This document shows positions 3,739-60,955 of a DNA stretch of 64,000 nt, in pieces (the stretch's first letter is position 1; each line of letters opens with the position of its first letter). The DNA is from Candidatus Acididesulfobacter guangdongensis (GTDB lineage Bacteria > SZUA-79 > Acidulodesulfobacterales > Acidulodesulfobacteraceae), in assembly GCA_004195045.1 (NCBI GenBank), contig SGBC01000001.1:186001-250000 (forward strand), given 5' to 3'. Position numbers and translations under genes: made by a program. The notes beneath the pieces are model-generated. The model saw only the letters and a program-made list of their open reading frames with translations. It was not told where the DNA came from and ran no database searches.

Positions 3739-4941
3739 TTACGGATAAGGCGTAAAATCGCGTATTTCATAATCCGCCGGCAGCCCGAACATAAGATTCA
3801 TATTCTGTACAGCCTGCAGAGAAGCGCCTTTTCCCAAATTGTCTATAGCGCTGACTAATATGAGATATGCGCCGTTTTTTGAAAAAGATATATGACAGAC
3901 ATTTGAATAAATTACATTTTTAATGTCAGGCAGAATACCGTTTTTCAGCAAAACAACAAAGGGGCTGTTTTTATAAAAATTATTGTATATATCTTCAATT
4001 GCATTTTCGCTGATAGCGATGCTATTTAACTTAATATAGATTGTTGTTAGTATTCCGCGTATCACCGGTATAATATGCGGAGTAAAAATTATTTCTGGAT
4101 AATTTTCCTCACTGTGCGTCTGTTCATATTTCCGTTGAATTTCCGCAGGTTCGGCTTCGTGCTTATGCAGATACGCAGGTTCATCATATATGGAAGGCTT
4201 ATAACCATCAGACTTACCGTTACCGCACGCAGATTTATACCCGCCCGTAAGCATTTCGTTGCAGATCTTTTCTTTAATTTCAGGAAGATGCCGATGTTTC
4301 CATAAATTATAAGCTCTCACGGAATTTTGAGCTTCGCAGAATAGATTCGATATATTAGCGCTGCTTCTGCCGGCTCCTGAAATGCCGGATTTAGAATCAA
4401 TAATAACAGGGCTATTAAAATTTATAATTCCTGCCTTTATGAGAGGCAATAGCGGTAAAAGAGCGCCGGTCGGATAACATCCGGGATTTGAAACAAACTG
4501 AACTCCTTTAATTTTATCTTCATAAACGTCTGCCAACCCATAGACAAAATATTTATTCAGGTCAGGCGCTGCATGTTTTTCATAATTTAGCTCGTAGTTT
4601 TCTAATCTGTCAAAACGAAAGTCCGCCCCTATATCTATTATTTTAATTAACGGATTGAGCTTTAAAATAGAAGACACGATTGAAGAGCTTTTTCCGTGAG
4701 GCAGACATAAGAAAACAACATCGCTCGAAGCAGCTATAAGCTTTTCGTCTAATTTTTCAAAATTAACCGAACATCCGCATCCGTTCATCTTACTAAATGA
4801 AGGGAATACTTCAGATATTTCTTTGCCTGCATTGCTCTGAGACGTAATATGAACCAGCTCGACATCTTTTCTTAGCAGAAGCGTATAAGCCAGATAAATT
4901 CCGCTATATCCTGAAGCGCCGACAATAGATACTTTAATCAT
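3739..4941 (-). CDS. argC: N-acetyl-gamma-glutamyl-phosphate reductase ArgC with an inserted loop
   Basis: ArgC carries out the NADPH-dependent reduction of N-acetylglutamyl phosphate to the semialdehyde, the third step of arginine synthesis. The NADP-binding motif VGASGYSGI opens the protein. The catalytic Cys is residue 155 in SNPGCYPTGALL, SKSGISGAGRSS follows, and the catalytic His lies in WKHRHLPEI near residues 215-222. The protein has 400 residues against about 345 in the family. The excess is a hydrophilic insert at about residues 228-280, rich in Glu, Tyr, Ser and Lys, before the conserved PEIIFTPHIIPVIRGI. The insert is in frame and all active-site motifs are intact, so the enzyme should work. 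It is not linked to other arg genes here. Confidence 0.95.
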   Translation of the reverse strand: MIKVSIVGASGYSGIYLAYTLLLRKDVELVHITSQSNAGKEISEVFPSFSKMNGCGCSVNFEKLDEKLIAASSDVVFLCLPHGKSSSIVSSILKLNPLIKIIDIGADFRFDRLENYELNYEKHAAPDLNKYFVYGLADVYEDKIKGVQFVSNPGCYPTGALLPLLPLIKAGIINFNSPVIIDSKSGISGAGRSSANISNLFCEAQNSVRAYNLWKHRHLPEIKEKICNEMLTGGYKSACGNGKSDGYKPSIYDEPAYLHKHEAEPAEIQRKYEQTHSEENYPEIIFTPHIIPVIRGILTTIYIKLNSIAISENAIEDIYNNFYKNSPFVVLLKNGILPDIKNVIYSNVCHISFSKNGAYLILVSAIDNLGKGASLQAVQNMNLMFGLPADYEIRDFTPYP

Positions 4942-5055
4942 GTTTATATAATTTATAATATATAATTTATAATAATGTAATAATTAGTGTATTCTCAAAC
5001 TGCCCTCGCACTACAACACTTTTTTTCGGAGTGGACTACTTGCTAAAACATACAA

Positions 5056-5225
5056 TTAACCCAACTTCATCATTTTACCACTTCACCGCTTTTATTATTC
5101 TAAAATTATAACCCATTGATATTATTACATTATATTTTTTATTTTTAGTCCCCATAGACATTTTATTGCCACATAAATATAGTAATACCAATGTGTTGCT
5201 GATAATTATGGTGAAGTTGGATTAA
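5056..5225. mobile_element. MITE copy 2, about 170 bp
   Basis: This is a second copy of the element at 1711-1866, in the same orientation. The left end reads TTAACCCAACTTCATCA and the right end GGTGAAGTTGGATTAA, each differing by one base from copy 1. It carries about 14 extra bases near the left end, apparently a partial duplication of the terminal TTCACC stretch. It sits between argC and the rplM-rpsI terminator. The divergence between copies suggests they did not transpose very recently. Confidence 0.78.
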
Positions 5226-5227
5226 AA

Positions 5228-5277
5228 ATAAAAAAAACCAGAAACAACCCATAATAATCGGAGTAAATTTCTGGTTT
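5228..5277 (-). terminator. Rho-independent terminator of the rplM-rpsI operon
   Basis: On the minus strand AAACCAGAAA pairs with TTTCTGGTTT (5268-5277 with 5235-5244) around a loop of about 23 bases. It is followed directly by a run of eight T. It lies 90 bases past the rpsI stop codon. The long loop makes it a moderate rather than textbook terminator. Confidence 0.6.
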
Positions 5278-5367
5278 ATAATATATTTATATCGTACTTC
5301 TATAAAGTATTCTACTTTTATAACTAAAGAATAATAATAGAAATAGCAATAATAATTATTCTTACAA

Positions 5368-5763
5368 TTATCTTTTTGAAAATTGAAATCTCGCTCTTGC
5401 TCCCTTTTGACCGTACTTCTTCCTTTCCTTAATCCTTGAATCTCTTGTAAGCATACCTGCTTTCGACAGGGTAGTTTTCAATTCAGGATTTAGCAGAAGC
5501 AATAAATGAGCGATTGCAAGCTTAATTGCGCCTGCCTGACCGTTAAGACCGCCGCCTCTGACATTGACAAAAACATCATACTTGTCTTCAATAGGAAAAA
5601 ATGCAAGCGATTTAACCGCCATGACCCTCTGATTTTCAATAGGGAAATAATCATTAAAATCTCTTCCGTTTATTGTTATCTTTCCCTTGCCTTCCTTGAA
5701 CAAAACCCTAGCAATAGAGGTTTTACGTTTTCCGGCTGCCTGCAATATATTTTTTTTAGCCAT
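5368..5763 (-). CDS. rpsI: 30S ribosomal protein S9
   Basis: S9 is a small-subunit ribosomal protein whose C-terminal tail reaches the P-site tRNA. At 131 aa it matches the normal length. Signature segments are visible: AAGKRKTSIARV at residues 9-20, FPIENQRVMAVKSL, the GGGLNGQAGAIKLAIAHLL region at about residues 71-89, and the basic tail ending ARARFQFSKR. It is the second gene of the classic rplM-rpsI pair, 124 bases downstream of rplM, and is followed by a terminator. Confidence 0.98.
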   Translation of the reverse strand: MAKKNILQAAGKRKTSIARVLFKEGKGKITINGRDFNDYFPIENQRVMAVKSLAFFPIEDKYDVFVNVRGGGLNGQAGAIKLAIAHLLLLLNPELKTTLSKAGMLTRDSRIKERKKYGQKGARARFQFSKR

Positions 5764-5887
5764 ATTCCAAATTACTCCGTATTTTATTACTTAATTAATT
5801 TATTTTAATTTATCCTATTTTTTCATAAATCTGCGTATTTTAGTATATAAAATTACATACCTTAATACTGCGTACGTATAGTATAAT

Positions 5888-6319
5888 TTAAATCATCGTT
5901 TTTATGTCAACCGCAACGGGATTCTGCGCAATATGCGGATGATTTTCGTCTGCATAAATTTTTAATTTTTTAATTAAAACATCAGCAAGCTTGTTCTTCG
6001 GCAGCATTCCTTTAACGGCATGGTAAACCGGAAAAGTCGCGTCTTTATGCAGCATATCTTTATAATTAAATGTTTTTAAACCGCCCGGATATCCGCTATG
6101 AAAATAATATTGCTTGTCCGTTAATTTTTTTCCTGTAATTTTAGCTTTTGCGCTATTAATGACAACTATGGAATCTCCCTTATTGGCATAAGGTGCATAG
6201 TCTGCTTTGTCCTTGCCCATTAATTTATTGGCGATAAAACTTGCAAGCCTCCCTAAGCTGACATCTTTAGCGTCAATTAAAATCCAATTATTTGAAATAT
6301 CGTCACTGCTTTTAGACAT
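5888..6319 (-). CDS. rplM: 50S ribosomal protein L13
   Basis: L13 is an early-assembling large-subunit protein. It shows NWILIDAKDVSLGRLASFIA, then KADYAPYANKGDSIVVINS, KYYFHSGYPGGLKT-type residues (here KQYYFHSGYPGGLKTF) and AVKGMLPKNKLADVLIKKL. The open frame extends to a TTG at 6331, but the true start is the ATG at 6319. The strong site GGAGGA lies five bases before that ATG and would be inside the longer frame. This gives 143 aa, the normal size. It leads the rplM-rpsI operon. Confidence 0.97.
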   Translation of the reverse strand: MSKSSDDISNNWILIDAKDVSLGRLASFIANKLMGKDKADYAPYANKGDSIVVINSAKAKITGKKLTDKQYYFHSGYPGGLKTFNYKDMLHKDATFPVYHAVKGMLPKNKLADVLIKKLKIYADENHPHIAQNPVAVDIKTMI

Positions 6320-6436
6320 TTGTTCCTCCAATATAAGATAATTAGTTATTTTCTTATAATATTAATTTTTTGTCAAGAACTTTTTTTTAATCAGTCTTTC
6401 GTATTTTAATCATTTCTTGCAATGCAACGTATTATT

Positions 6437-10715: not shown

Positions 10716-12044
10716 TTACCTCCAGTTAGATCTTGAAAACTGGGGAAGATCCTCAAAATCGCCTCTTATGGCATAGCCTTCATTAATATTATATACTTCA
10801 AACTCGTTATCTATAACAAACGAGTATATGTTGCCTTTTAAGAATTCATCTTTATATTTTAAACATTTTTGTCCCTGCCTTATTATAGCCGATAATATGC
10901 CTGCTCCTGCAACATCGCCTAAAAGTATTGCTCCTACAAGAACTTGACCGTCATAAACTAATTTTCTGTAAATAGATTCGCCTTCCTGATGAACAAACAC
11001 GGTTTGCGATGGATCGTTTGGATTAGTAAGCCCTATGGTTATAATAGGCAGTCCGTATATCTCGACTGAATTAAGTCCCATGCCGCCGTAATATTCTCTA
11101 TATACTCCAGCCATATTTGTGCCGGCAATTCTTCCCTGTTCACAGGCAAGAGGAACTATAGCTATTATATTGGGTTTTTTATTTAAAATATCATACGATA
11201 CTATAGCGTCGCCGCCGGCATATACATCTTTAATATTGGTCATCATGGTTTTATCTACTATTATTCCTCTGTCAATTGTAATACCGCTGCCTTCAAGAAA
11301 ACCTATGTTCGGTCTTACGCCTATTGCCACAATAACGATATCTGCAACAAGCTCCCTGCCGCTTTTCATTATAACGCTGGTAGGATTGCCAGCCTCATCT
11401 ACGTTAATTTTGGTAACGGTGTCGTTAGTTGCCGTGTCAATGCCGTTTTCGTTCAGTTTTTTTGCCGTTATGCCGCCTGATATTTCATCAAGCGCCAAAC
11501 CTAAGACACGCGGAAGAAGTTCTGCTATTGTAACGTGCATATCAAGAGCTCTCAAACCTTCCGATGCTTTCAGACCTATCAATCCGCCGCCTATAACTAT
11601 AGCCTCTTTATGTTTAGCTAATTTTGCGCCTCTTTCCATTTTTTTTGCATCATCAAATTTAGTAAAAGTTCCCATCATTGGGGATTCTGCGTTAAATCCA
11701 TCTATCGGCGGCACAAACGGGACGCCTCCAGGTCCAATAAATAACTTATCGTATTCAATAGACTCATTGTCGTCCAGCACTACTTTTTTATCTGCCGTGT
11801 TTACCGATACAACTTTTTTTCCGAATAATGTTTTATAATTATTTTTTTCGTAATAATCATCATCTTTATACCATATAGTTTCGTCTGTTGTTTTACCTTC
11901 CAGATAATATGAAATCAAAGGTCTTGCATATGCCTTATATGATTCGTCGGATATTATCGTAATCTCTCCAGTTTTATCAAATCTTCTTATCGCATCGGCG
12001 CATGAAAGACCTGAATAAGAATTACCGATTATTACATATCTCAT
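10716..12044 (-). CDS. NAD(P)/FAD-dependent pyridine nucleotide-disulfide oxidoreductase
   Basis: A 442-residue flavoprotein of the NirB/rubredoxin-reductase/NADH oxidase-like group. The N-terminal FAD motif reads YVIIGNSYSGLSCADAIRR. The NAD(P)H-binding motif VIGGGLIGLKASEGLRAL is at about residues 150-167. The second FAD segment ends in VYAGGDA near residue 280. A C-terminal domain with YGLPIITIGL and GAILLGDVAGAG follows. There is no redox-active CxxC pair. It lies directly downstream of a CooF-like ferredoxin gene, so it most likely passes electrons between NAD(P)H and ferredoxins of the Mo-enzyme module. That is inference from position. Confidence 0.85.
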   Translation of the reverse strand: MRYVIIGNSYSGLSCADAIRRFDKTGEITIISDESYKAYARPLISYYLEGKTTDETIWYKDDDYYEKNNYKTLFGKKVVSVNTADKKVVLDDNESIEYDKLFIGPGGVPFVPPIDGFNAESPMMGTFTKFDDAKKMERGAKLAKHKEAIVIGGGLIGLKASEGLRALDMHVTIAELLPRVLGLALDEISGGITAKKLNENGIDTATNDTVTKINVDEAGNPTSVIMKSGRELVADIVIVAIGVRPNIGFLEGSGITIDRGIIVDKTMMTNIKDVYAGGDAIVSYDILNKKPNIIAIVPLACEQGRIAGTNMAGVYREYYGGMGLNSVEIYGLPIITIGLTNPNDPSQTVFVHQEGESIYRKLVYDGQVLVGAILLGDVAGAGILSAIIRQGQKCLKYKDEFLKGNIYSFVIDNEFEVYNINEGYAIRGDFEDLPQFSRSNWR

Positions 12045-12170: not shown

Positions 12171-12752
12171 TTAGCGATTATTATTCTTATAACGGTTATA
12201 ATTAATTTTTAAATGCGGTCCGTATAATTTATTTGCAATCATCAACCTTCTTTCATATGAATAATTTTTAATGCCTGTTTTCTTTAAAGCTCCTTTTTTA
12301 CACGCTTCTACGCATTTTGGCGTATCTTCATCAATGCACCCGTCGCATTTTGAAGCATAGTGGTCTTTGCCAACCCGTTCTATTGCGCCGAACGGACAAA
12401 CCATGACGCACATCCAGCATCCCACGCATTTTTTGTAGTTTGTCAAAGTCCAGCCGTTTTCAATATCCCTATACCTTGCGCCTGGCATACATGCATCAAC
12501 GCACGGGGCTTCTTCGCAATTATGGCATAAAATAGGAAAAAATTTATTTCCTTTAGATTTTATATTAATTCTTGCGGTGTTATACTTTCCGTATTTTTCC
12601 TTCATATGAGTTTCGCAGGCCTGAACGCATGATTTATACTCCTGCCCTTCGCATCCGTCACATTTTGAAGGGTAAAGCATTATTTCTATCTGATTTTTTT
12701 TAAGGTCCTCTTCAAGGTTTGTAAGTTTTATACTCTTCATATTTTTTTCCAT
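12171..12752 (-). CDS. CooF/HycB-like ferredoxin with four [4Fe-4S] clusters
   Basis: The protein has 193 residues and 16 cluster cysteines in the usual DmsB/HycB order: CDGCEGQEYKSCVQAC, CHNCEEAPCVDACMPGA, CVGCWMCVMVCPFGAI, and CDGCIDEDTPKCVEACKKGA. It is a soluble electron-transfer subunit. The ATG at 12752 follows CTGGAG at good spacing and is preferred to the internal ATG four codons later. It lies between mobA and the FAD oxidoreductase, so it likely links the flavoprotein to a molybdenum enzyme. It is distinct from the second ferredoxin at 18.1-18.8 kb, which sits beside the catalytic subunit. Confidence 0.88.
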   Translation of the reverse strand: MEKNMKSIKLTNLEEDLKKNQIEIMLYPSKCDGCEGQEYKSCVQACETHMKEKYGKYNTARINIKSKGNKFFPILCHNCEEAPCVDACMPGARYRDIENGWTLTNYKKCVGCWMCVMVCPFGAIERVGKDHYASKCDGCIDEDTPKCVEACKKGALKKTGIKNYSYERRLMIANKLYGPHLKINYNRYKNNNR

Positions 12753-12779: not shown

Positions 12780-14402
12780 TTATAATTTTTTGTAAAAATT
12801 TATAGCTTTTTGAATTTTAGCTGCAATAAAAAATAAATTTTTATTTAAATAAAAATTTTTTTCTTTATTTAAATAAAAGATAAGTTTTTTTAAATATATT
12901 TTATCGATTTTATCGGCATTGTTTTTATTATTATTTTCGTTAATATTTTTGTTATTATTTCCGTCGTAGTTATTTATGTCATTTATTATATTGTTATTTA
13001 TTATATGGTTATTTATTATATTCTCTCTATAATTATCATTATTATTATTGCCGATATTTTTACTGTTATTAATATCCTTTTTATTTTTGCTGTAAAGTTT
13101 TAAATAATATAATTGATTAGCTAAATAACCGTAAGGCTTAGCTAATTTGCCGTTATGTATATCTTCAGCCAGATTTTTTTTACGGTTCAGCTTACCTGAT
13201 AATATAAGAAAATTATTCCTTTTAACTGCTATTATGCTTTTTTTATGTTCTGTATCCTTCTTATATTTATCTTTGTATTTATATTTACCCCTATCTTTAC
13301 AGTCATCTTTATATTTATATTGATTTTTATTTTTATCCTTTGTTTTAGACTCTGATTTTATCTCGTCTAAATTGACGCTGTTGACAATATTTACATTGAT
13401 GCTGTTAACAGTTCCGTTACTTTCACCCTTATCGGTATTACCTGATGTATTTTCGCAATTTAATTGTTTCAGAATACCGATTAAACTGTCTTTGTCATTA
13501 ATATTGCGAAAGTATTCAGATTTTATCCGATTATTTTCTTTAATTATATCATTTATATAAAAATAATAAACCCTGCCGATAAATCTTGCAATATTTATTG
13601 CATCGTTATAAATAAAATCGTCGTAATTTGCCAAATTTAAAGCATAACTGTTTAGCATTGATAAAATGCTTAACGTTTTTTTTCTATTATAGCATGCAAG
13701 AAGCGGCTCTATTGTAGAATCTGACCACATAGGCACTACAGCATCGAAATTTTTATAATTACCGCCTTCTCCGTTTTGTATCTTATTTATTAGAATGTTA
13801 GCACAGTCAAAATTAAAAAAAGGCGCGTCGCATTCTAACAACAAAACATAATCATTTTTTAGATAATTAAAACAGCTGAAAATGCCTTTTAACGGTCCTG
13901 CCAATCTGCTATTTTTATCATCGGCATCGGCTATTATTTTGAAATTTAAATATTTTTTATTGTTATGCCGATTAACATGGCGATTATTTTTATCAGCATC
14001 TTTATCAGCGTGTATTTTTTTATTTTTTAAATCATTTTTTATTTTACCGCAATTACGGTTGATATTACCGTCTATTATATAATTATCAAGCTGTATATCC
14101 TGCGCATTCTGTATAGCAACCGCAATTTCAACCAATTCTTTTTTATATCTGACGTTCGATTTGCAATTTATTGCAAAATCTGAACCGCTATAGATTTTGT
14201 TTAAAATAGCGATTAACGCACAGCGGAATTCATCTAAATTATTTATGTTCCTTACTGAAATTATTATATCGTCTGCAACTTTCAAAGCCGTTTCCAAAAC
14301 TCTTTCAAAAAGAGACTTCCCATCAAATACATAAAGGGCTTTGTTTTCTCCGAATCTTTTTGACTGTCCGCCCGCCAATATTAAACAGCTTATATTGTCC
14401 AT
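12780..14402 (-). CDS. mobA: Molybdenum cofactor guanylyltransferase MobA with large low-complexity inserts
   Basis: MobA joins GMP to molybdopterin to make the guanine dinucleotide cofactor. The nucleotide-binding start ILAGGQSKRFGENKAL, then RLAGPLKGIF at residues 166-175, ECDAPFFNFD at 190-199 and PMWSDSTIEPLLACY at 224-238 are all family hallmarks. The protein has 540 residues against about 200 normally. One insert (about 80-155) splits the catalytic domain. A tail from about residue 285 on is dominated by Asn, Lys, Asp and Tyr. The DNA there is AT-rich, repeat-like and still open. Catalytic motifs are intact, so the enzyme may be active despite the disordered additions. It ends 28 bases from the next gene and starts 8 bases after the PTPS-like gene stop, so it is in an operon. 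Confidence 0.88.
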   Translation of the reverse strand: MDNISCLILAGGQSKRFGENKALYVFDGKSLFERVLETALKVADDIIISVRNINNLDEFRCALIAILNKIYSGSDFAINCKSNVRYKKELVEIAVAIQNAQDIQLDNYIIDGNINRNCGKIKNDLKNKKIHADKDADKNNRHVNRHNNKKYLNFKIIADADDKNSRLAGPLKGIFSCFNYLKNDYVLLLECDAPFFNFDCANILINKIQNGEGGNYKNFDAVVPMWSDSTIEPLLACYNRKKTLSILSMLNSYALNLANYDDFIYNDAINIARFIGRVYYFYINDIIKENNRIKSEYFRNINDKDSLIGILKQLNCENTSGNTDKGESNGTVNSINVNIVNSVNLDEIKSESKTKDKNKNQYKYKDDCKDRGKYKYKDKYKKDTEHKKSIIAVKRNNFLILSGKLNRKKNLAEDIHNGKLAKPYGYLANQLYYLKLYSKNKKDINNSKNIGNNNNDNYRENIINNHIINNNIINDINNYDGNNNKNINENNNKNNADKIDKIYLKKLIFYLNKEKNFYLNKNLFFIAAKIQKAINFYKKL

Positions 14403-14409
14403 TAATTAT

Positions 14410-14898
14410 TTATCTTAAATTTTTTTTAATTTTTCCTCTCTGTCCGTGACCTTCGCTTAAAACAACTTCTATATAATTAAGCGATGCAAATGCGTCGTCG
14501 TTTTTAATATCTGTAATAAGCTGGTCAATACAATAAACCGCAAGATCTTCTATGTTTAGAGACGGAATATTTATTCTGAATATATCAGATTTTGGAATCA
14601 GATAATATTTATTATTAATTTCTATATGATAGTGCGTTTGTTTATCTGTAATTTTTTGAATTGATTCAGGGTAGTCAGCCAATAATATTTTGTCTTCAAA
14701 AGTTGAACATAGTCTGGCTATTATAGCTTTTAGATTATACAGATGAACAATTCTTCTTTTATCGTCAAATTCCCCGTCCACAGAGACGTCTATGTAGTGA
14801 AAATGCGGATGAATTCTTGAACAGTCTCCTCTTCCCGGAACAATATGCATACATTCAAATGTTAATCCTGCTTCTCTTCCCAACAATTCGACTATCAT
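14410..14898 (-). CDS. 6-pyruvoyl-tetrahydropterin synthase/QueD-family protein
   Basis: A 162-residue T-fold enzyme. Zinc ligands fit His18 (FECMH) and the pair His30 and His32 in CSRIHPHFHY. Cys26 stands where QueD/PTPS has its catalytic Cys (C-x3-H-x-H). A strand IDVSVDGEFDD follows, and the C-terminal region carries VVLSEGHGQ. Known family members make 6-carboxytetrahydropterin (queuosine pathway) or pyruvoyl- or hydroxymethyl-pterins. Here the gene is eight bases upstream of mobA and downstream of a MoaA-like gene, not next to que genes. This suggests a role tied to pterin or molybdopterin metabolism, but the substrate is not known. Confidence 0.75.
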   Translation of the reverse strand: MIVELLGREAGLTFECMHIVPGRGDCSRIHPHFHYIDVSVDGEFDDKRRIVHLYNLKAIIARLCSTFEDKILLADYPESIQKITDKQTHYHIEINNKYYLIPKSDIFRINIPSLNIEDLAVYCIDQLITDIKNDDAFASLNYIEVVLSEGHGQRGKIKKNLR

Positions 14899-15032: not shown

Positions 15033-15890
15033 CTAATAGTTAAAATCGGTCAGCTGTCCGTCGGGAAGCATTCTAAGCCCTGAGCATCTTCCGTTTGACG
15101 ATAAGCAAACGTCTTTAATGCTGCGGCAAAGGGTGATGTTTATTCCCTTATATTTAATTTTTTTTCTGTCATTATATCTGTCTATATTAAAATCAAGTCC
15201 TATTTTTTTTAAAACGTTTATCGGCTCAGCGTAATATTTTTTGTAAACGTTTAAATTTCCCGCCTCGGATAATTCTATAAATTGCAAATTAAAATTATTT
15301 AAACTGCAGAAATCAATTATTTTAAGCAGGTCTTTTTTATTTGTATTTATTGATTTTAGCAGAACGGAATCAATTTCTATATTAAAATTTTTTTCGCGTA
15401 AGGTCTCTAATCCTTTTATAACTTTACTGTAATAGTTTTTTCCAGTGAGCAGCCTATATTTTTCTTCATCAAGCGTATCTAAGCTTATTGAAATTTTTTT
15501 AATAAGCGATGGACTTATTTCATCAATTCTTCTATCGATTAAGGTTCCGTTGGTAGTTATAAATATGTCTATATCGCCTATTTGTTTTATGGCATAAATA
15601 AGCTGTTTTATTTTTTTATAGAGAAAAGGCTCTCCTCCGGTCAATTTTACTTTTTTAAGGCCAAATTCCTTCAATGAATAAATTGTGCTGATGATATTTT
15701 CAATTTCAATACTATGCTTTGAAGATTTAGAAATTCCTTCGTTATGGCAATACAGGCAGTCTTCGTTGCACTCTCCCGTCAATGAAATCCTTAACGAATT
15801 AATTGTAAAATCCTTGTCTGCGTCGTAATCATCTAATTCTTCGTTAACAGGAAATGCACCTTCGTAATAATTAAACAAATAATTTTTCAT
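15033..15890 (-). CDS. MoaA-like radical SAM protein with shortened C-terminus
   Basis: The radical SAM core is clear: CNEDCLYC near residues 38-45 binds the first [4Fe-4S] cluster, with KLTGGEPFLYKKI at about 83-95 and ISLDTLDEEKYRLLTG. This resembles GTP 3',8-cyclase MoaA. However, the protein ends at 285 residues, against about 330. In the C-terminal CSGLRMLPDGQLTDFNY stretch, the position of the third Cys of MoaA's second cluster is occupied by Phe, and the final helices are missing. It could be a degenerate MoaA, or a related enzyme acting on another pterin or nucleotide with its PTPS-like neighbour. Its place between moeA and the PTPS-like gene supports a cofactor role. Confidence 0.72.
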   Translation of the reverse strand: MKNYLFNYYEGAFPVNEELDDYDADKDFTINSLRISLTGECNEDCLYCHNEGISKSSKHSIEIENIISTIYSLKEFGLKKVKLTGGEPFLYKKIKQLIYAIKQIGDIDIFITTNGTLIDRRIDEISPSLIKKISISLDTLDEEKYRLLTGKNYYSKVIKGLETLREKNFNIEIDSVLLKSINTNKKDLLKIIDFCSLNNFNLQFIELSEAGNLNVYKKYYAEPINVLKKIGLDFNIDRYNDRKKIKYKGINITLCRSIKDVCLSSNGRCSGLRMLPDGQLTDFNY

Positions 15891-16002: not shown

Positions 16003-16111
16003 AAATAGATTAGTTAAAAAATATTATAATCATTTAAGACTTTCATAGAAGCGGATATATCTAAAGCATCAAGAATAAATAGATTAGTTAAAAAATATTA
16101 TAATCATTTAA
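16003..16111. repeat. 35-base direct repeat at the moeA 3' end
   Basis: An exact 35-base repeat beginning AAATAGATTAGTTAAAAAAT occurs at 16003-16037 and 16077-16111, with a period of 74 bases. The second copy contains the last seven codons and the stop of moeA; the first lies downstream. It is a local duplication of the gene end with no evident function. Confidence 0.8.
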
Positions 16112-17383
16112 AGTAACCGCGACCTCTTCACCGGCATGTATAACCACGGTTTCCTCGTCCATCGCAAAACTTCCGTTTGCCCTTATCAGCGGCGAAAGTG
16201 ACCTGGCTGCGGACGGCGGTTTTGGCGGCTGAATAACTGAAGCCGTTAATTTTCCGTTTTCCTCTCTGGCTATTTTAACCTGAAAATATTTCCGAACGCC
16301 TTTTTCCGAGGTTACCTCTTCTTTCAATATTGCTTTAATTTCAGGGTATCTTTTATAAATATTATTTATACCGGTCATTTTTTGAATAAACGGTCTTACG
16401 AATAAATCAAAGGTTATTATAACAGAATACGGCCATCCTGCCAAAGCAAAAATGGGCGTATTATTATTAAGTAATCCAAATGAAGTAGGTTTTCCGGGAA
16501 CTAAGTTTAAGCCGTGAAAACACAATTTTCCTGCTTTGCCGATAGCGGACGGTATTAAATCGTAAAAATTTGTAATTTCTTTGTTATCAAGAACTAAAAA
16601 ACTTGCACCTGTTCCTCCGGTTGAAATCAGCAGATTGTATTTTTCGGATTTATCTGCAGATATGAGAGCATTTACGATACTTTCTGCATTATCCTCTACC
16701 ACGCCTATAACTTCCGGAATTCCTCCGGCATCTTTTATCAATGCTTTTAAAGCGGTAGTGTTAATATCATATATTTTATTGTTTTGTAATTCATCGCCGG
16801 GCTGTACAAGCTCATTGCCTCCGGATAAAATTCCGATAACCGGTTTTTTAAAAACCGATATATTTTTATATCCTATTCCAGCCAGAGCCGCTATGTCGCA
16901 CAGTCTGATTTTATTGCCTTTAGAATAGAGCTTTTTACCGGATTGAATATCATCGCCGACAGGAGAAAGATACGAGCCTGACTCAACTTTTTTATCGTAT
17001 GATACATATCCGCCAGAGTAATCCAAGGTATCTTCAATTAAAATAACAGAATCCGCGCCAGGTGGAACCGGAGCGCCTGTCGTAACAAACGCAGCCTCGC
17101 CATGATGTATTTCGTTAAGAGCATTATTAAATCCGGCAGTTATCTGCTGCACAACTTTTAATTTTGTAATTTTATTTTCTGAAAAATCACTAGCTATAAC
17201 GGCAAAACCGTCAACGGCAGACCTGACAAAAGGCGGAATATCAACTTCAGGAATGACATCATTCGACAGAACCCTGTCTAAACTGTTCTCAACAGGTACT
17301 TCTTCTTTATCCGTTATTCTCCGTATGTATTTATCCGTCAGTTCCAGCAGGTCCGAAGCTTGTTTTTTATTTTTATCGCTCAT
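16088..17383 (-). CDS. moeA: Molybdopterin molybdenumtransferase MoeA
   Basis: MoeA inserts molybdate into adenylylated molybdopterin. At 431 residues it has the normal size and domain order: PPFVRSAVDGFAV at about 56-68, AFVTTGAPVPPGADSVILIED, the MogA-like domain GILSGGNELVQPGDELQ near 190-206, and LNLVPGKPTSFGL. The usual GGxSxG loop reads STGGTGASF, a mild variant. A terminator lies just upstream, at 17.42-17.48 kb, so moeA seems to head its own minus-strand transcript toward the MoaA-like, PTPS-like and mobA genes. Confidence 0.94.
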   Translation of the reverse strand: MSDKNKKQASDLLELTDKYIRRITDKEEVPVENSLDRVLSNDVIPEVDIPPFVRSAVDGFAVIASDFSENKITKLKVVQQITAGFNNALNEIHHGEAAFVTTGAPVPPGADSVILIEDTLDYSGGYVSYDKKVESGSYLSPVGDDIQSGKKLYSKGNKIRLCDIAALAGIGYKNISVFKKPVIGILSGGNELVQPGDELQNNKIYDINTTALKALIKDAGGIPEVIGVVEDNAESIVNALISADKSEKYNLLISTGGTGASFLVLDNKEITNFYDLIPSAIGKAGKLCFHGLNLVPGKPTSFGLLNNNTPIFALAGWPYSVIITFDLFVRPFIQKMTGINNIYKRYPEIKAILKEEVTSEKGVRKYFQVKIAREENGKLTASVIQPPKPPSAARSLSPLIRANGSFAMDEETVVIHAGEEVAVTLNDYNIF

Positions 17384-17592: not shown

Positions 17593-17838
17593 TTAAAAAT
17601 AAGGTTCTACGGGATACATTTTGATACCTGCACCCTCTAATATTTTCTTGGCATTTGCCTCGTCTTCAAGATTTACGAAGATAGTCGCATGATAGGGCGT
17701 GATGCTGGCAACATTTCTTCCTACAATCGCAATTTTTGATTTTTTTAAAGTATCTTCCGCTTTATCAAAATCTCCATTATTGTAGTCAACCCTGATAGGC
17801 GCATTGTATATAGTTCCGACCGAACTTAACTTTGCCAT
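17593..17838 (-). CDS. Small soluble protein of the Mo-oxidoreductase operon, 81 aa
   Basis: I do not recognise a named family. The 81-residue protein has no Cys and no membrane segment. Its pattern (strand PIRVDY, helix FDKAEDTLKKS, strand KIAIVGRNV, strand ATIFVNL, helix DEANAKKILEGAG, final IKMYPVEPYF) resembles a small alpha/beta ACT- or ferredoxin-like fold. GGAGG precedes the ATG. It lies downstream of the ferredoxin and catalytic subunits and just before a terminator, so it may be an accessory or regulatory subunit of the enzyme. Confidence 0.6.
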   Translation of the reverse strand: MAKLSSVGTIYNAPIRVDYNNGDFDKAEDTLKKSKIAIVGRNVASITPYHATIFVNLEDEANAKKILEGAGIKMYPVEPYF

Positions 17839-17927: not shown

Positions 17928-18047
17928 AATCCTGCAATAGAAAGTTATCTACCCGGATAAGGTGTCAGATTAATTTTTTTGCAAATATTTTCTTTGTTAA
18001 TTGAACTACTCCGTATGCAAAAAAATAAAATCTGACACCTTATTCCT
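17928..18047. repeat. Composite repeat with long GGTGTC inverted arms
   Basis: TTAATCCTGCAATAGAAAG is followed by GGATAAGGTGTCAGATTA (from 17955). About 30 bases of near-perfect inverted repeat end with TCTGACACCTTATTCC at 18047. The central spacer of about 33 bases includes GAACTACTCCG. A similar sandwich of about 94 bases lies at 26159-26252. It fills the gap between the 81-aa gene and the ferredoxin gene. Confidence 0.75.
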
Positions 18048-18142: not shown

Positions 18143-18796
18143 TCAACCTACCTTGGAACTGTTATCGTTATCTTCGACGGAAGAAGTGCCCTGTGTAGAA
18201 TGCGGCAAATCAAATCCGAAGAAGTGTTCCGTCATTTTACGGGCGGTTTTTTCTCTGTCGATTGTTGAAATTCTGTTTATATTGCCGAACCAGAGCGCAT
18301 CCGTAGAACAGAGAGTAACGCATGCAGGCAGTAATCCTTCGTCTATTCTGTGTCTGCAATAATCGCATTTTGTAACCTTTCCGGTCGCATCGTTAAACTG
18401 GGGCGAACCGAAAGGGCACGCATGTATGCATGATTTGCATCCAATGCATGTAGTCGGGTCGTTAAAGACTATGCCGTCAGTTCTTTTTTGCATTGAACCT
18501 GTAGGGCAGGCTTTAACGCAGGCTGCATCATCGCAATGAAAACAATTCATTGGTAAATAAACGGTTTTAAGCTGACCTTTCTTAACAAAATATGGTCCTA
18601 CCTGGATAACTCTCATTCTTCTCGGTCCAACCGGAAGATTATGCTCTTTTTTGCAGGATACTTCGCAAGACATACACCCTATGCATCTATCAATATTAAC
18701 CTTCATAGAATATTTAGGGTTTGAAGATTTAAGAGTTATTCTTGCCGCTCTTTCTTCTCCAAGATGAAATCTGTCAAATCCATATTCAGATGACAT
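18143..18796 (-). CDS. Four-cluster ferredoxin subunit of the Mo oxidoreductase (PhsB/DmsB-like)
   Basis: The protein has 217 residues with cysteine groups CIGCMSCEVSCKKEH, CFHCDDAACVKACPTGS, CIGCKSCIHACPFGSP and CDYCRHRIDEGLLPACVTLC. This is the usual layout of the electron-transfer subunit beside DMSO-reductase-family catalytic subunits. It lacks a signal peptide and a membrane anchor, as does the catalytic subunit encoded just upstream at 19.0-21.5 kb, so the pair should be cytoplasmic. The short gap between the two genes holds a possible stem-loop at 18851-18923. Confidence 0.9.
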   Translation of the reverse strand: MSSEYGFDRFHLGEERAARITLKSSNPKYSMKVNIDRCIGCMSCEVSCKKEHNLPVGPRRMRVIQVGPYFVKKGQLKTVYLPMNCFHCDDAACVKACPTGSMQKRTDGIVFNDPTTCIGCKSCIHACPFGSPQFNDATGKVTKCDYCRHRIDEGLLPACVTLCSTDALWFGNINRISTIDREKTARKMTEHFFGFDLPHSTQGTSSVEDNDNSSKVG

Positions 18797-18850
18797 ATTT
18801 GACTCCTTTATAATATAATTTAATTATTAAAATTATTTTTATATTTTTAA

Positions 18851-18923
18851 CAATAAGGGCATCACTAATTACATTACAATAATTATATTATACATTGTAT
18901 GCCATTATATGGTACCCTTATTG
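18851..18923. other. Intergenic inverted repeat between the two Mo-enzyme subunit genes
   Basis: CAATAAGGG at 18851-18859 is complementary to CCCTTATTG at 18915-18923, with a 55-base AT-rich loop. No T-run follows on the minus strand. It could stabilise the upstream catalytic-subunit mRNA or set subunit ratios; this is inference. Confidence 0.4.
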
Positions 18924-19002
18924 TCAACAAACAATCCATGCACATGCAATTTAAATAAAGTTTAATTAATATTTATTATATTTATTAATCAATATTTATT
19001 TA

Positions 19003-21549
19003 TTAATATTTTCTCGTATCGCATGAAACAGGCGTACACTCTACCGGTTCTTTGAAATTAACCAATTTTTTCCATCCGATACTCAGTTCGTGATATTCTT
19101 TCCAGTGGTCTTTCCATTTACCGATAATAACATCCTTGTCTTGATGTTTCGGGTCCCAAACCTCAGGAAATTTCTTCTGTAAAAACTCGACTACGTTTTT
19201 AGCAGTTCCTTCCGGATCTTCATCGCCTTTTCTATATACTCTGCACAGAATAGCTTTGAATTGAATCTGACCGTAAACAGGGTCTTTTATAATATCATCG
19301 ATAACGGTATTAATTGACTCATACGGATGAAAAGGCTGATATCTGTCGAAACCAAAATTAGCCCAAATTCCGTCTTCAGGCACCATTTCGGTAACCCATG
19401 CCGGACCTTCAACCCAGCCTCTGTCATTTTCAACTATTACCATATCTCCGTCTTCAATACCCATAACGGCAGCGGTAGCAGGATTTATTTCGATATTTCT
19501 ATCCGGTTCCAGCTCATCGTTCCATGGCCACCAATGACCGCCTTCATGAAATGATTGAGCAATTCTGGTAGTATTCAGAATAAGCGGATATTTTTTTGCT
19601 CTTTCAAAATTTCCTAAAGGAGATTCCGAACCTTCAACCTGGGTAGGAACTTTGTACCAGCCGATTTTCTCCAGAGGTTCCGAAGCAAGTTCAATTTTAC
19701 CGGAAGGTGTAGGAAATCTTTTATCTGATTCAGGATAATTTTCACCTTCTTTATACATTATCCATTTTCCGCGAAGAACGGCTTCGTCATCCTGAAAAAC
19801 CGCTTCTTCTTTAGAAAATACAGGCCACATAAGTCCGCCTTTAGGATTTTTCTCAGGATTCAGAACATCATATTTTATGCCTCTTGTAAAGGGCTCCTGA
19901 TCATTAAAGAAATCTGTCATATGTATTTCATTAACCCTGCCTTTATCGGGACCGTCTTCATAATAGCCCCATGGATTGAATTCGACTTCGTTAAAATGAC
20001 CGACGCCGGCATTTTTTAATCTCTTCGCAATACCGTCAAATACGTCTATATCCGCCCTATGTTCATGCTGATAAGGAATTACTTTGTTATGCCATTGTAT
20101 AAGTCTGTTATTGCCGTGATGACAAATGCTGTCGGTTTCAACGGACATAGCAATCGGAAACGCTACATGACTGAACATATAGGTATGATTCGGATATATG
20201 GAAAGATGCACATTAATTATATTTCTTTTCATTGCTTCTTCCATTTTCCACGAGTTCGGAAACTGGGGAAGATGATCTCCGTTCCAGATAATACCTTTTA
20301 CCGGATACGGTTTTTCATACATCATCGCATTTATAATACACGGAACTGAACTATCGCCCCACGAAATCAATTTGTCGGTAATTTGAGGTCTTTTCGGCAA
20401 TGGAATATCATGCAGGTCGTTCCCGTAATTTAGCGGGGGTCTGCAGTTATGAAGCCAATTCCAGCCGCCGCCTTTCACACCGATAGAACCGGTTAATGCA
20501 AGAAGAGCCGCAATAGACCTGTTGACATTGTTTGAATTATAAATCTGAGCTGTTCCTAAATTTCCGGTAACAGAAGCAGGTCTTGCCATACCGAACCTTC
20601 TTGCCGCTTCAATTATTGTTTCTTTAGGAATATAAGTAAGTTTTTCAGCGCGTTCAGGAGACCATTTTGCGCATTCTTTAGCATATTCCTCAAAACCTGT
20701 TACCCATTTATCGACAAATTCTTTATTGTAAAGTTTTTCCTGAATTATTATATTTCCCATAGCAAGAAATAATATCGCATCTGAACCTGAGCGGATTCTC
20801 ATGCCTATATCGCATTTTGAAAGCGTTGCGTTGAAACGCGGGTCTACGCCTATTAAGAAAGCTCCGTTATCGCGTGCATCAAGAAGATGAGTCATTGTAA
20901 TGGTTTCTTGTGCAGCCATATTTGTTCCTACTAGCAGAATACATTTTGAATTTTTCCAATCCTGCGACGGATTCATAAGTCTTCCGAGACCTTTTGCCCC
21001 AAATACGTAATTCATTGACACGCCTGGGCTTTCGCAGCATATTGGACCTTGACCGTAAACATTGGGAGTGCCGAATATTTTGCCAAACCTTGCAGCTCCC
21101 TCTTTGTTACCGAAAGACGACCTGCCTGTTCTAAAAATAGCAAGAGCTTCTGGTCCCTGTTCGTTATAGAGTTTGATAAGCCGTTCAGCCGTAAAATCAA
21201 GAGCGTCATCCCACGAAACGCGTTTGAAATCATCGGTCAAAGACTTTCTCATGTATGGATAGTTTACCCTTAACGGGTCATACCACCACTGAATCTGTCC
21301 AACACCTTTAGAGCAAAGACCTCCTCTATTCTGAGGATGTTCAGAATCGCCCATTACATCGACAATTCTGCCATTTTTTAAAAATATTTTGAGACCGCAT
21401 CCGCTCTCGCACATATTCGTACATGTGGAATAACGAACAGTGTCATGCTCTTTGGAAGATTCCTGCGGGCGATGGTCGGGCTTTATTTTCATAAGCCTGT
21501 TATCTTTCACTCTCAAGAATCTTTCTTTGCCTAATTCATCAAAATCCAT
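19003..21549 (-). CDS. Cytoplasmic molybdopterin oxidoreductase, DMSO reductase family catalytic subunit
   Basis: An 848-residue Mo-bisPGD enzyme. An N-terminal [4Fe-4S] site uses Cys43, 47, 51 and 79 (CTNMCESGC, GGLCSKG). The segment YGQGPICCESPGVSMN near residues 165-180 supplies the probable Mo ligand Cys (171 or 172). TPSGKIELASEPLEKIGW and INPATAAVMGIEDGDMVIV mark the C-terminal cofactor domain. There is no twin-arginine signal, unlike periplasmic Phs, Psr, Arr or Ttr enzymes. The frame opens at 21561, but GGAGGGC immediately before the second ATG (21549) makes that the better start. The gene sits between an HdrB-like gene and a ferredoxin gene. Candidate reactions include sulfur-oxyanion or polysulfide reduction, arsenate chemistry or an acetylene-hydratase-like reaction. 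The substrate cannot be assigned. Confidence 0.9.
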   Translation of the reverse strand: MDFDELGKERFLRVKDNRLMKIKPDHRPQESSKEHDTVRYSTCTNMCESGCGLKIFLKNGRIVDVMGDSEHPQNRGGLCSKGVGQIQWWYDPLRVNYPYMRKSLTDDFKRVSWDDALDFTAERLIKLYNEQGPEALAIFRTGRSSFGNKEGAARFGKIFGTPNVYGQGPICCESPGVSMNYVFGAKGLGRLMNPSQDWKNSKCILLVGTNMAAQETITMTHLLDARDNGAFLIGVDPRFNATLSKCDIGMRIRSGSDAILFLAMGNIIIQEKLYNKEFVDKWVTGFEEYAKECAKWSPERAEKLTYIPKETIIEAARRFGMARPASVTGNLGTAQIYNSNNVNRSIAALLALTGSIGVKGGGWNWLHNCRPPLNYGNDLHDIPLPKRPQITDKLISWGDSSVPCIINAMMYEKPYPVKGIIWNGDHLPQFPNSWKMEEAMKRNIINVHLSIYPNHTYMFSHVAFPIAMSVETDSICHHGNNRLIQWHNKVIPYQHEHRADIDVFDGIAKRLKNAGVGHFNEVEFNPWGYYEDGPDKGRVNEIHMTDFFNDQEPFTRGIKYDVLNPEKNPKGGLMWPVFSKEEAVFQDDEAVLRGKWIMYKEGENYPESDKRFPTPSGKIELASEPLEKIGWYKVPTQVEGSESPLGNFERAKKYPLILNTTRIAQSFHEGGHWWPWNDELEPDRNIEINPATAAVMGIEDGDMVIVENDRGWVEGPAWVTEMVPEDGIWANFGFDRYQPFHPYESINTVIDDIIKDPVYGQIQFKAILCRVYRKGDEDPEGTAKNVVEFLQKKFPEVWDPKHQDKDVIIGKWKDHWKEYHELSIGWKKLVNFKEPVECTPVSCDTRKY

Positions 21550-21591
21550 GTTGCCCTCCATATTATTAATTAATTAACACTAAAAATAAAA

Positions 21592-22509
21592 TTAAATTGC
21601 GGTTTCCGAATATAAATTAAACGCATAATTTGCATATTCGCCAAGCTCAACCTCTAAGCCTGCCAAGTATCCGATAAGCTCTTCAAAACCAACCATCGGC
21701 GCAAACGATTCTAAATCCGACATATCGACAGCATTAATCAAATTCTGCTGACACATGGAACATATTGTTAAAATATAATCCGAATCGGTTTCATTTGCTT
21801 TTTGATTTATTGACTTGAAAAATTCATTTAAATCATTTGCGCTTTCTATTCTTTTATTCCTCAACGGAGTGACATTTTGCAGTTTCTCTCCGCCGCAGCA
21901 CTCAGAATATAAAGACACCCTCGCGCCCAGATTTTCTAAAAATTTTGTTAATTGAAGTATATTGTCTTGATTGTCGTAACAACCTGTATAGAGTAATATA
22001 GAATGACCTTTTAAATTTTTAACTGCTTTTTTTAAAAAATTTTCTGCGGTTTTATTTTCAGCTGCAATATCGCCGGAATCATTCGTTTCTATATTTGTCT
22101 CATTAAGGGCGAACATTAAATCCAGAATATGTTTTGCTCCGGTTTTATCGGTATCGGTATCGGACAGAACAGCCTTAAACGGCTTAAGACTATAATCTAT
22201 CTGATTTTTATACATAGAATTTTTATTAACGGTATCAAGAGCTTTATTTATGGATTTGCTGCATACCTGACAACCTGTATATAAATACTTAGCTCCTTTG
22301 CTCTGTGCTAATCCCAGATTTCTAAGCGGCATAACAACTTTATTAAAAAATTTATGGTCATAATAGCCCGGAGCTGCGCCGCAGCAATTCCATTCTTCAA
22401 GAAGTTCCGCTTCTATATCCAGAAATTCAAAGATTTTATAAAGATTTTTATTTTTAGCTTTTATATTATTTGACTCCACGCATCCGGGATAATATAATAT
22501 TTTTTTCAA
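21592..22509 (-). CDS. HdrB-like CCG-domain iron-sulfur protein
   Basis: A 305-residue protein with two complete CCG motifs. The first uses Cys10, Cys42-Cys43 (NCCGAAPG) and Cys80/83 (GCQVC). The second has TGCYDNQ, ECCGGEKL and ICSMCQ. In heterodisulfide reductase HdrB such motifs bind non-cubane [4Fe-4S] clusters that handle disulfide or thiol chemistry and electron transfer. It starts the minus-strand cluster and lies 43 bases before the Mo enzyme start, so the two are almost certainly co-transcribed. It suggests that the Mo enzyme exchanges electrons with a thiol/disulfide or ferredoxin couple in the cytoplasm. Confidence 0.85.
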   Translation of the reverse strand: MKKILYYPGCVESNNIKAKNKNLYKIFEFLDIEAELLEEWNCCGAAPGYYDHKFFNKVVMPLRNLGLAQSKGAKYLYTGCQVCSKSINKALDTVNKNSMYKNQIDYSLKPFKAVLSDTDTDKTGAKHILDLMFALNETNIETNDSGDIAAENKTAENFLKKAVKNLKGHSILLYTGCYDNQDNILQLTKFLENLGARVSLYSECCGGEKLQNVTPLRNKRIESANDLNEFFKSINQKANETDSDYILTICSMCQQNLINAVDMSDLESFAPMVGFEELIGYLAGLEVELGEYANYAFNLYSETAI

Positions 22510-25063: not shown

Positions 25064-25084
25064 AAAAGGTGTCAGATACCTTTT
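25064..25084. repeat. GGTGTC palindrome at the other side of the TnpB remnant
   Basis: AAAAGGTGTCAGATACCTTTT is a near-perfect palindrome with one mismatch. The TnpB similarity stops on its left, and a copied rmd fragment begins within ten bases on its right. Confidence 0.8.
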
Positions 25085-25090
25085 CCTCTT

Positions 25091-25205
25091 AAATCAACCG
25101 TACCTCTTTCATCTATTAGCGGAACACACAAGTGTGAACCTTGGATAAAACTTGTGTTATATGGTTTCCTACAAAACCGGAAGCGCCTGTTAGTAAAATA
25201 TTCAT
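25091..25205 (-). pseudogene. 5'-end fragment copied from the rmd-like gene
   Basis: Starting at an ATG (25203-25205), the minus strand encodes MNILLTGASGFVGNHITQ, then VLSKVHTCVFR and a stop. It matches the first 35 or so codons of the gene at 30841-31767. A two-base insertion (TGTGTTCC versus TGTTCC) shifts the frame. The similarity runs to the CTCTTAA next to the palindrome. It is a non-functional partial duplicate. Confidence 0.85.
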
Positions 25206-25289
25206 ATGTTTCATATGTTATTTTAATTTTAATATATTTATTTAAATATAGTAAAATATTTAATTAATATCAAAAATCCATCTTAAAAT

Positions 25290-25452
25290 ATGAAAAATTA
25301 ATCAGATACCTTTTTCTTTAAAACAAACGGCAGATACAGACAGAAGTAAGAGATAAAATAAATCAGATATGATTTATACGATCACTTAAAATGCAGTCGG
25401 GAGTACGAGAATAAATAGATCTAGAATAAATATATCTGACACCTTTATTTAT
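25290..25452. repeat. Degenerate GGTGTC-type repeat cluster
   Basis: AATCAGATACCTTTTTC (25298), AATCAGATATGATTTA (25360) and TATCTGACACCTTTATTT (25433) surround AAAATGCAGTCGGGAGTACG. The last motif recurs as CACAGTCGAGAGTAAAGG near 26697 and inverted near 60874. This 250-base gap has no gene. Confidence 0.55.
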
Positions 25453-60769: not shown

Positions 60770-60955
60770 AATAAAGGATTCAGATTTATTTAAAATAAAA
60801 TAAAGAAAATAAAGGCAAATAAAGAAAATAAAGGGGTCTAAATAAAGGGGTCAGATTTATTTAATCTCTTACTCTTTACTGCATTTACAGGTTATTTGAA
60901 TAAAAATAAAGAATAATTGAATCCGACACCTTTATTTTTGACACCTTTATTTTTC
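60770..60955. repeat. GGTGTC-type repeat cluster before the Phd-RelE pair
   Basis: AAATAAAGGGGTCAGATTTA and ATTGAATCCGACACCTTTAT are opposed arms, followed by a second TGACACCTTTATTTT. The centre CTCTTACTCTTTACTGCATT is the inverse of the motif in the 25390 and 26697 repeats. It belongs to the same dispersed family. Confidence 0.65.

Follow-up and report, generated by a model that had tools for sequence, protein, structure and literature searches.

The question raised by this locus is which electron partner serves a soluble molybdenum enzyme whose gene directly follows one for an HdrB-like protein, and on what substrate such an enzyme would act. The locus lies in a window of 64,000 nucleotides of the Candidatus Acididesulfobacter guangdongensis genome (contig SGBC01000001.1, positions 186,001 to 250,000), where a first-pass annotation had described a four-gene unit pairing HdrB with a cytoplasmic Mo-bisPGD oxidoreductase, with HdrB as its defining partner. 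On the minus strand, positions 18143-22509 hold three real genes, for the HdrB-like protein, the Mo catalytic subunit and an FeS subunit, in that order, and a gene for an 81-aa protein comes next. The four genes and their coordinates had been placed correctly; the unit had been ended too early, as the operon runs past the 81-aa gene down to 10716 and forms a conserved ten-gene run (22509-10716, minus strand) that includes a second ferredoxin subunit, FeS193, and an FAD/NAD(P)H oxidoreductase, FAD-OR. The conserved operon contains no gene for HdrC or HdrA, which belong to a separate HdrABC cluster elsewhere in the genome, and no gene for an NrfD/DmsC/SoeC-type membrane anchor.

The catalytic subunit (19003-21561, minus strand) was called with 852 residues. 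We suggest that its true start is the second ATG, at 21549, which would give 848 residues, because homologues begin there and a GGAGG lies upstream. It carries the Pfam domains Molybdop_Fe4S4, Molybdopterin and Molydop_binding, one [4Fe-4S] motif of its own, and a Mo ligand, Cys176, within GPICCESPGV. The residue after Cys176 is a Glu in all sequences, including the most distant relative considered below (G312), whereas formate dehydrogenases have their catalytic His there. Neither a twin-Arg signal nor a membrane-crossing hydrophobic stretch occurs in the HdrB, Mo and FeS trio (19-residue hydropathy maxima of 1.09, 1.11 and 1.22), and the proposal of a soluble, cytoplasmic enzyme was thus borne out. 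No NCBIfam model approaches its cut-off for the catalytic subunit; the top match is Fdh-alpha at 257.6 bits, far under the cut-off of 666. AlphaFold2 returned a model with a pLDDT of 30 from an alignment of 16 near-identical sequences.

Maximum-likelihood trees were built with FDH, Nap, Nas, Dms, PhsA, PsrA, acetylene hydratase (Ahy) and several plasmid enzymes as references; SoeA, bSreA, ArrA and ArxA were not among them, and the PsrA and Ahy rows were partial. The catalytic subunits and their G312 relative form a deep clade on a long branch, split from FDH, Nap and Nas at 100/99. PhsA and PsrA pair at 100/100 with the Mo subunit outside, and Ahy groups with other rows at moderate support (82/90 and 82/93). 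The sister group, again at moderate support (82/93), consists of uncharacterised Tat-type enzymes of Nostoc, Streptomyces and one further genome (G091). Judged from these trees, the Mo subunit is a member of a deep unnamed clade in the Psr/Phs/acetylene hydratase half of the DMSO-reductase superfamily and is not a formate dehydrogenase. The comparison proposed earlier, with Phs, Psr, acetylene hydratase and FDH among others, matched it to no named family. The Streptomyces enzyme of the sister branch, an uncharacterised Tat-type Mo-bisPGD protein, is encoded at 3875-6400 of a Streptomyces sp. NBC_01708 plasmid (L070), in an arsenic-resistance island with ArsC, ACR3, ArsO and ArsR.

The first gene of the run (21592-22509, minus strand, TTG start) encodes a 305-aa protein with two CCG domains (PF02754 twice). 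It has ten Cys in total, at positions 10, 42, 43, 80, 83, 177, 204, 205, 250 and 253; all are CCG ligands and all are invariant in 19 homologues, so the two intact CCG motifs reported earlier hold. The second motif has an unusual spacing, CX26CCX44CXXC. Sequence and fold searches of the PDB both gave HdrB as the best match, the predicted model being of moderate quality (pLDDT 67), and NCBIfam placed SdhE and HdrB nearly equal (41.5 vs 37.6 bits). Among paralogues in its own genome, the HdrB of the HdrABC cluster and one sHdrB2 copy are nearer (E 1e-12 to 1e-23) than SdhE (E 1e-8 to 1e-11).

Downstream of the catalytic subunit, FeS217 (18143-18796, minus strand; 217 aa) has 16 Cys in four [4Fe-4S] motifs, is DmsB/TtrB-like with Fer4_11 and related Pfam matches, and has no anchor. 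The 81-aa protein (17593-17838, minus strand) has no Pfam or NCBIfam match; a very shallow profile comparison gave no similarity to NapD. Genes linked to Moco follow, all on the minus strand: MoeA for Moco biosynthesis (16088-17383), a MoaA-like radical SAM protein (15033-15890), a PTPS/QueD-like protein of 162 aa (14410-14898) and a MobA-like NTP transferase (12780-14402). The PTPS/QueD-like gene is fixed between MoaA and MobA across the phylum; any role in Moco pterin chemistry would be conjectural. The MobA-like protein is 540 aa long here vs 321-324 aa in relatives, with a long low-complexity insertion rich in Asn, Lys and Asp in this genome. Separated from the Mo gene by these Moco genes are FeS193 (12171-12752, minus strand; 193 aa), again with 16 Cys in four [4Fe-4S] motifs and with the PadI N-terminus as best NCBIfam match, and FAD-OR (10716-12044, minus strand; 442 aa), which matches PadH best (279 bits). 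PadI and PadH are parts of an NADH-linked enzyme.

Two non-coding features lie within the operon. A stable hairpin (18850-18924; z -2.8 vs shuffles) lies in the 206 bp that separate the Mo gene from the FeS gene; it may act in processing or attenuation, or be one more small repeat. A palindromic element, present in the genome as inverted pairs of ends AAGGTGTCAGATT about 80 to 380 bp apart, has one copy in the spacer that follows the FeS gene and precedes the 81-aa gene; its positions include 17959-18041, 25066-25445 and 60845-60932 of the window, among others. Matches to these ends number nine in the window against 0.02 expected, and the element looks like a small non-autonomous mobile element.

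We compared 30 genomes of the phylum, with the host placed in the order Acidulodesulfobacterales and related contigs including SZUA-79 and Ca. Acididesulfobacter. The Mo subunit occurs in 25 of the 30, once in each and at 88-99% identity (the G002 copy is split over two contigs). Five genomes lack it. In G020 the contig ends right after the 81-aa gene, G013 and G023 are 86% and 59% complete, G027 has neither the Mo enzyme nor MoeA and keeps sHdr, Apr and Dsr, and G014 is considered below. Outside the phylum, a wider sample of 386 bacterial genomes yielded a single relative above 50% identity (G312, 54%), the next best being at about 31%; plasmid collections held nothing above about 30%, and viral contigs held no relatives. 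The HdrB-Mo-FeS-81aa order, whose conservation had been put forward as a check, is kept wherever contigs reach, apart from G014 where the whole set is lost, and so is far beyond chance.

Against G012, from another genus, identities were 91% for Mo, 90% for FeS217, 81% for FAD-OR, 78% for FeS193, 67% for the 81-aa protein, 65% for MoeA and 49% for HdrB. As yardsticks, SdhA gave 87%, SdhE 81%, AprA 82%, ribosomal proteins S9 and L13 about 71%, and the sHdr subunits 86-94%. Mo and FeS217 are thus conserved on par with the sulfur-oxidising sHdr proteins and above SdhA and AprA. Because their identity across the phylum (88-91%) equals that of sHdr and exceeds that of SdhA and AprA, these sequence comparisons suggest that the Mo enzyme is probably part of core catabolism. 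Among the redox proteins of the set HdrB has diverged most, with 48-58% identity across the phylum vs 88-91% for Mo and FeS217, and its sequence drifts while its cluster ligands stay fixed.

Two genomes bear on which genes belong together. In G014 (99% complete, 6% contamination), a 114-kb contig still carries MoeA, MoaA, PTPS, MobA and MobB in their usual places, but the position directly beside MoeA expected for the 81aa-FeS-Mo-HdrB set is taken by ATP synthase genes, and FeS193 and FAD-OR are gone from between MobA and MobB. Nowhere in this genome is there a Mo subunit, and the portion examined for all six structural genes, 0.94 of about 2.0 Mb, contained none of them. Because the losses come from two sites around retained Moco genes, they support the view that HdrB, Mo, FeS217, the 81-aa protein, FeS193 and FAD-OR form a single functional unit and work together, HdrB included; the co-conservation of HdrB and Mo anticipated earlier is seen in their joint loss. 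G312, from the other phylum, encodes Mo (54%), FeS217 (58%) and the 81-aa protein (53%), the last again 3′ of the FeS gene, consecutively up to a contig end, and a second small contig carries a TorD-like gene, FeS193 (46%), FAD-OR (49%) and a permease resembling a molybdate transporter. We infer from their ends that the two contigs are adjacent; a fragment of this genome may be missing. A profile search of G312 found no orthologous HdrB, the sole match (66 bits) being the HdrB subunit encoded in an HdrABC cluster alongside NuoF-type genes. Since G312 keeps them, the companions that appear constant across both phyla, as read from the genes, are the 81-aa protein and the NAD(P)H module of FeS193 and FAD-OR. 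These redox subunits, and not HdrB, accompany the enzyme in G312, which shifts the role of defining partner away from HdrB: the NAD(P)H module would be the constant electron partner and HdrB a phylum-specific addition.

The host genome provides the setting in which such an enzyme would work. It encodes an NAD-linked FDH, a Tat-exported TtrA-like enzyme, NuoG, SdhABE, an HdrABC cluster, AprA and two sHdr clusters. Both sHdr clusters are complete and lie on contig C3 at 171-178 kb and 327-335 kb, the second also holding lipoate-ligase-like genes, a gene for an ArsR-type regulator and two for LbpA. With just 46% identity between them, the two sHdrA proteins may act on different carriers. The SdhABE-type complex II, with its SdhE CCG subunit, is encoded at C1:183101-186784 (the start of the window and just before it), and SdhABE lies about 20 kb from the Mo operon in the compared genomes of the phylum. 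Across the phylum, AprA scores above its cut-off in 26/30 genomes and sHdrA homologues match in 27/30. A tie of the Mo enzyme to DsrAB was rejected, since the host and four congeners have no DsrA and keep the enzyme, which is therefore independent of Dsr. In seven genomes of the phylum (G013, G015, G017, G020, G021, G024 and G026), DsrA has an in-frame TAG or TAA, which may reflect sequencing error, a pseudogene or recoding.

Taking these results together, we tentatively favor the view that the operon encodes a Mo-bisPGD oxidoreductase from a new clade, soluble in the cytoplasm and linked to NAD(P), to which HdrB has been added and whose substrate would be a small sulfur oxyanion, sulfite in the first place. 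A single gene set across the phylum, the loss of all six genes in G014 and the retention of Mo-FeS-81aa and FeS193-FAD-OR in G312 (46-58% identity) argue for the NAD(P) link. The small substrate would react at the Mo held by Cys176, and electrons would pass through the [4Fe-4S] cluster of the Mo subunit to the four clusters of FeS217, from there to the four clusters of FeS193 and on to the FAD subunit, which would exchange hydride with NAD(P). In this phylum, HdrB with its two CCG sites would probably give electrons another way out or in, connecting with a disulfide or sulfane-carrier couple.

The sulfate/sulfite couple lies at about -0.52 V and can reduce NAD+. Release of sulfite into the cytoplasm is attributed to the sHdr system, and Acidithiobacillus caldus has soeABC beside its hdr cluster (PMC6335251). 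Oxidation of sulfite to sulfate is our first choice, and a best guess as to both substrate and direction, because sHdr-LbpA is thought to supply cytoplasmic sulfite and sulfite is reducing enough for NADH. The guess is weakened by AprA, which gives sulfite an oxidation route already in 26 of the 30 genomes, and by G027, where sHdr, Apr and Dsr are present but the enzyme is not. In its most specific form, the reading would be a soluble NAD+-reducing sulfite dehydrogenase with an HdrB site, turning sulfite from sHdr-LbpA into sulfate and NADH without quinones, while HdrB would let it share electrons with a carrier of the disulfide or sulfane type, and we regard this as rather doubtful. Against a single complex, Mo and HdrB evolve at very different rates. 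FeS193 and FAD-OR could also be a free NAD(P)H:ferredoxin reductase, because Moco genes separate them from Mo.

The same module could run the other way, with NAD(P)H reducing the FAD subunit and the Mo center reducing an acceptor in the cytoplasm, such as polysulfide, thiosulfate or an oxyanion of a metalloid. An NAD(P)H module is reversible, the reductases PsrA, PhsA and DmsA lie on the same side of the tree as the Mo subunit, and the sister branch of the latter includes the enzyme of the Streptomyces arsenic-resistance island; however, conservation as strict as that of sHdr suits a catabolic entry enzyme better than detoxification, and the genome already has its exported TtrA-like reductase. 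A reductive direction thus has an appreciable but lesser chance of being correct. It would be unlikely, though still credible, for HdrB to be the main partner, with electrons passing between Mo, the 217-aa subunit, HdrB and a disulfide (DsrC-type or a carrier) that is reduced or oxidized, and with the FAD/NAD(P)H pair as a separate enzyme. HdrB does stand directly before Mo wherever contigs reach (30 bp apart in the window), is closest to HdrB proper in fold and sequence, keeps all ten cluster ligands and was lost along with Mo in G014. That loss took FeS193 and FAD-OR likewise, however, and the operon has neither HdrC nor HdrA, HdrB is its least conserved redox protein, and G312 has kept FeS193 and FAD-OR with only the HdrB of an HdrABC cluster.

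Two further identities were disfavored. If the CCG subunit were an SdhE-like monotopic anchor, replacing an NrfD/SoeC anchor in a quinone oxidoreductase on the cytoplasmic side, then the small NCBIfam margin for SdhE and the true SdhABE operon nearby would be accounted for; the paralogue comparison, which puts the protein nearer HdrB and sHdrB2, the lack of a strongly hydrophobic segment and the HdrB folds at the top of the structure search make this improbable. That the enzyme is simply a cytoplasmic formate dehydrogenase, or an assimilatory nitrate reductase, of the usual kind is hardly to be expected. The Fdh-alpha profile and the FDH-like layout of the NAD(P)H module point toward it, but the 100/99 split in the tree and the Glu in place of the FDH His after Sec/Cys led us to reject both enzymes, and the genome has a separate NAD-linked FDH.

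The locus matters because a single-copy enzyme kept nearly phylum-wide at the level of sulfur oxidation, and belonging to no curated family, points to a gap in what is understood of how these abundant bacteria of acid mine drainage obtain energy. A cytoplasmic link from a sulfur oxyanion to NAD(P)H, if the enzyme provides one, would spare sulfur autotrophs the long-standing problem of reverse electron transport; if the enzyme is an NAD+-reducing sulfite dehydrogenase, chemolithoautotrophs would gain NADH without such transport. The clean co-loss in G014 delimits a well-defined unit that is directly testable. No molybdopterin enzyme is mentioned in the main text of the 2019 paper that described the organisms (PMC6776010), our literature search found no paper pairing HdrB-like, molybdopterin and CCG, and papers on sulfur disproportionators mostly concern exported enzymes or normal HdrABC.

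Mo-bisPGD enzymes, NAD(P)H modules and HdrB are each known, and among the libraries and papers searched the catalytic clade and the combination match nothing named. HdrB pairing had been called unusual, which fits this branch of enzymes; as a general statement it does not stand, given HdrB- or HdrD-like proteins with Mo/W enzymes in FdhAB-HdrABC (PDB 7bkb, 9t1s) and in BamB-BamDE (PMC12016498). FdhAB-HdrABC of methanogens likewise links a cytoplasmic Mo/W enzyme of the DMSO-reductase family to HdrB, whereas its catalytic subunits are those of formate dehydrogenases, coupled to flavin modules of the F420 or HdrA kind, and the operon described here has no HdrA, HdrC or FDH His. The class II benzoyl-CoA reductase BamBCDEFGHI similarly brings a W enzyme, a ferredoxin, the Hdr-like BamDE and an NADH module into one soluble complex, but its catalytic subunit is unrelated at the family level and it has an HdrA-type flavin subunit that is absent here. 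PsrA and PhsA, the polysulfide and thiosulfate reductases, share the Mo-FeS pairing and the same half of the catalytic tree; they form their own clade (100/100) and have Tat export and a membrane subunit, neither of which is found here. SoeABC sulfite dehydrogenase and the bacterial SreA clade (PMC10100899) are also cytoplasmic, Cys-ligated Mo-bisPGD enzymes with a 4x[4Fe-4S] subunit from sulfur bacteria with Hdr-like clusters; they use a SoeC/NrfD-type anchor where this operon has the NAD(P)H module and HdrB. AorABC of Aromatoleum is an NAD-linked tungsten aldehyde oxidoreductase in which electrons pass from the W subunit to a four-cluster subunit and on to FAD and NAD (PMC6365974, PMC10413684). 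The shared design, here read from genes, is a soluble W/Mo enzyme, a 4x[4Fe-4S] subunit and an FAD subunit passing electrons to NAD. AorABC differs in its catalytic subunit, which is of the AOR superfamily rather than the DMSO-reductase superfamily (Pfam Molybdopterin/Molydop_binding), in having one 4x[4Fe-4S] subunit where there are two here, and in having neither HdrB nor the 81-aa protein. An AorABC-type NAD module, a four-cluster ferredoxin and an FAD/NAD subunit, is thus encoded with the Mo enzyme throughout the phylum and in G312, and was lost with it in G014.
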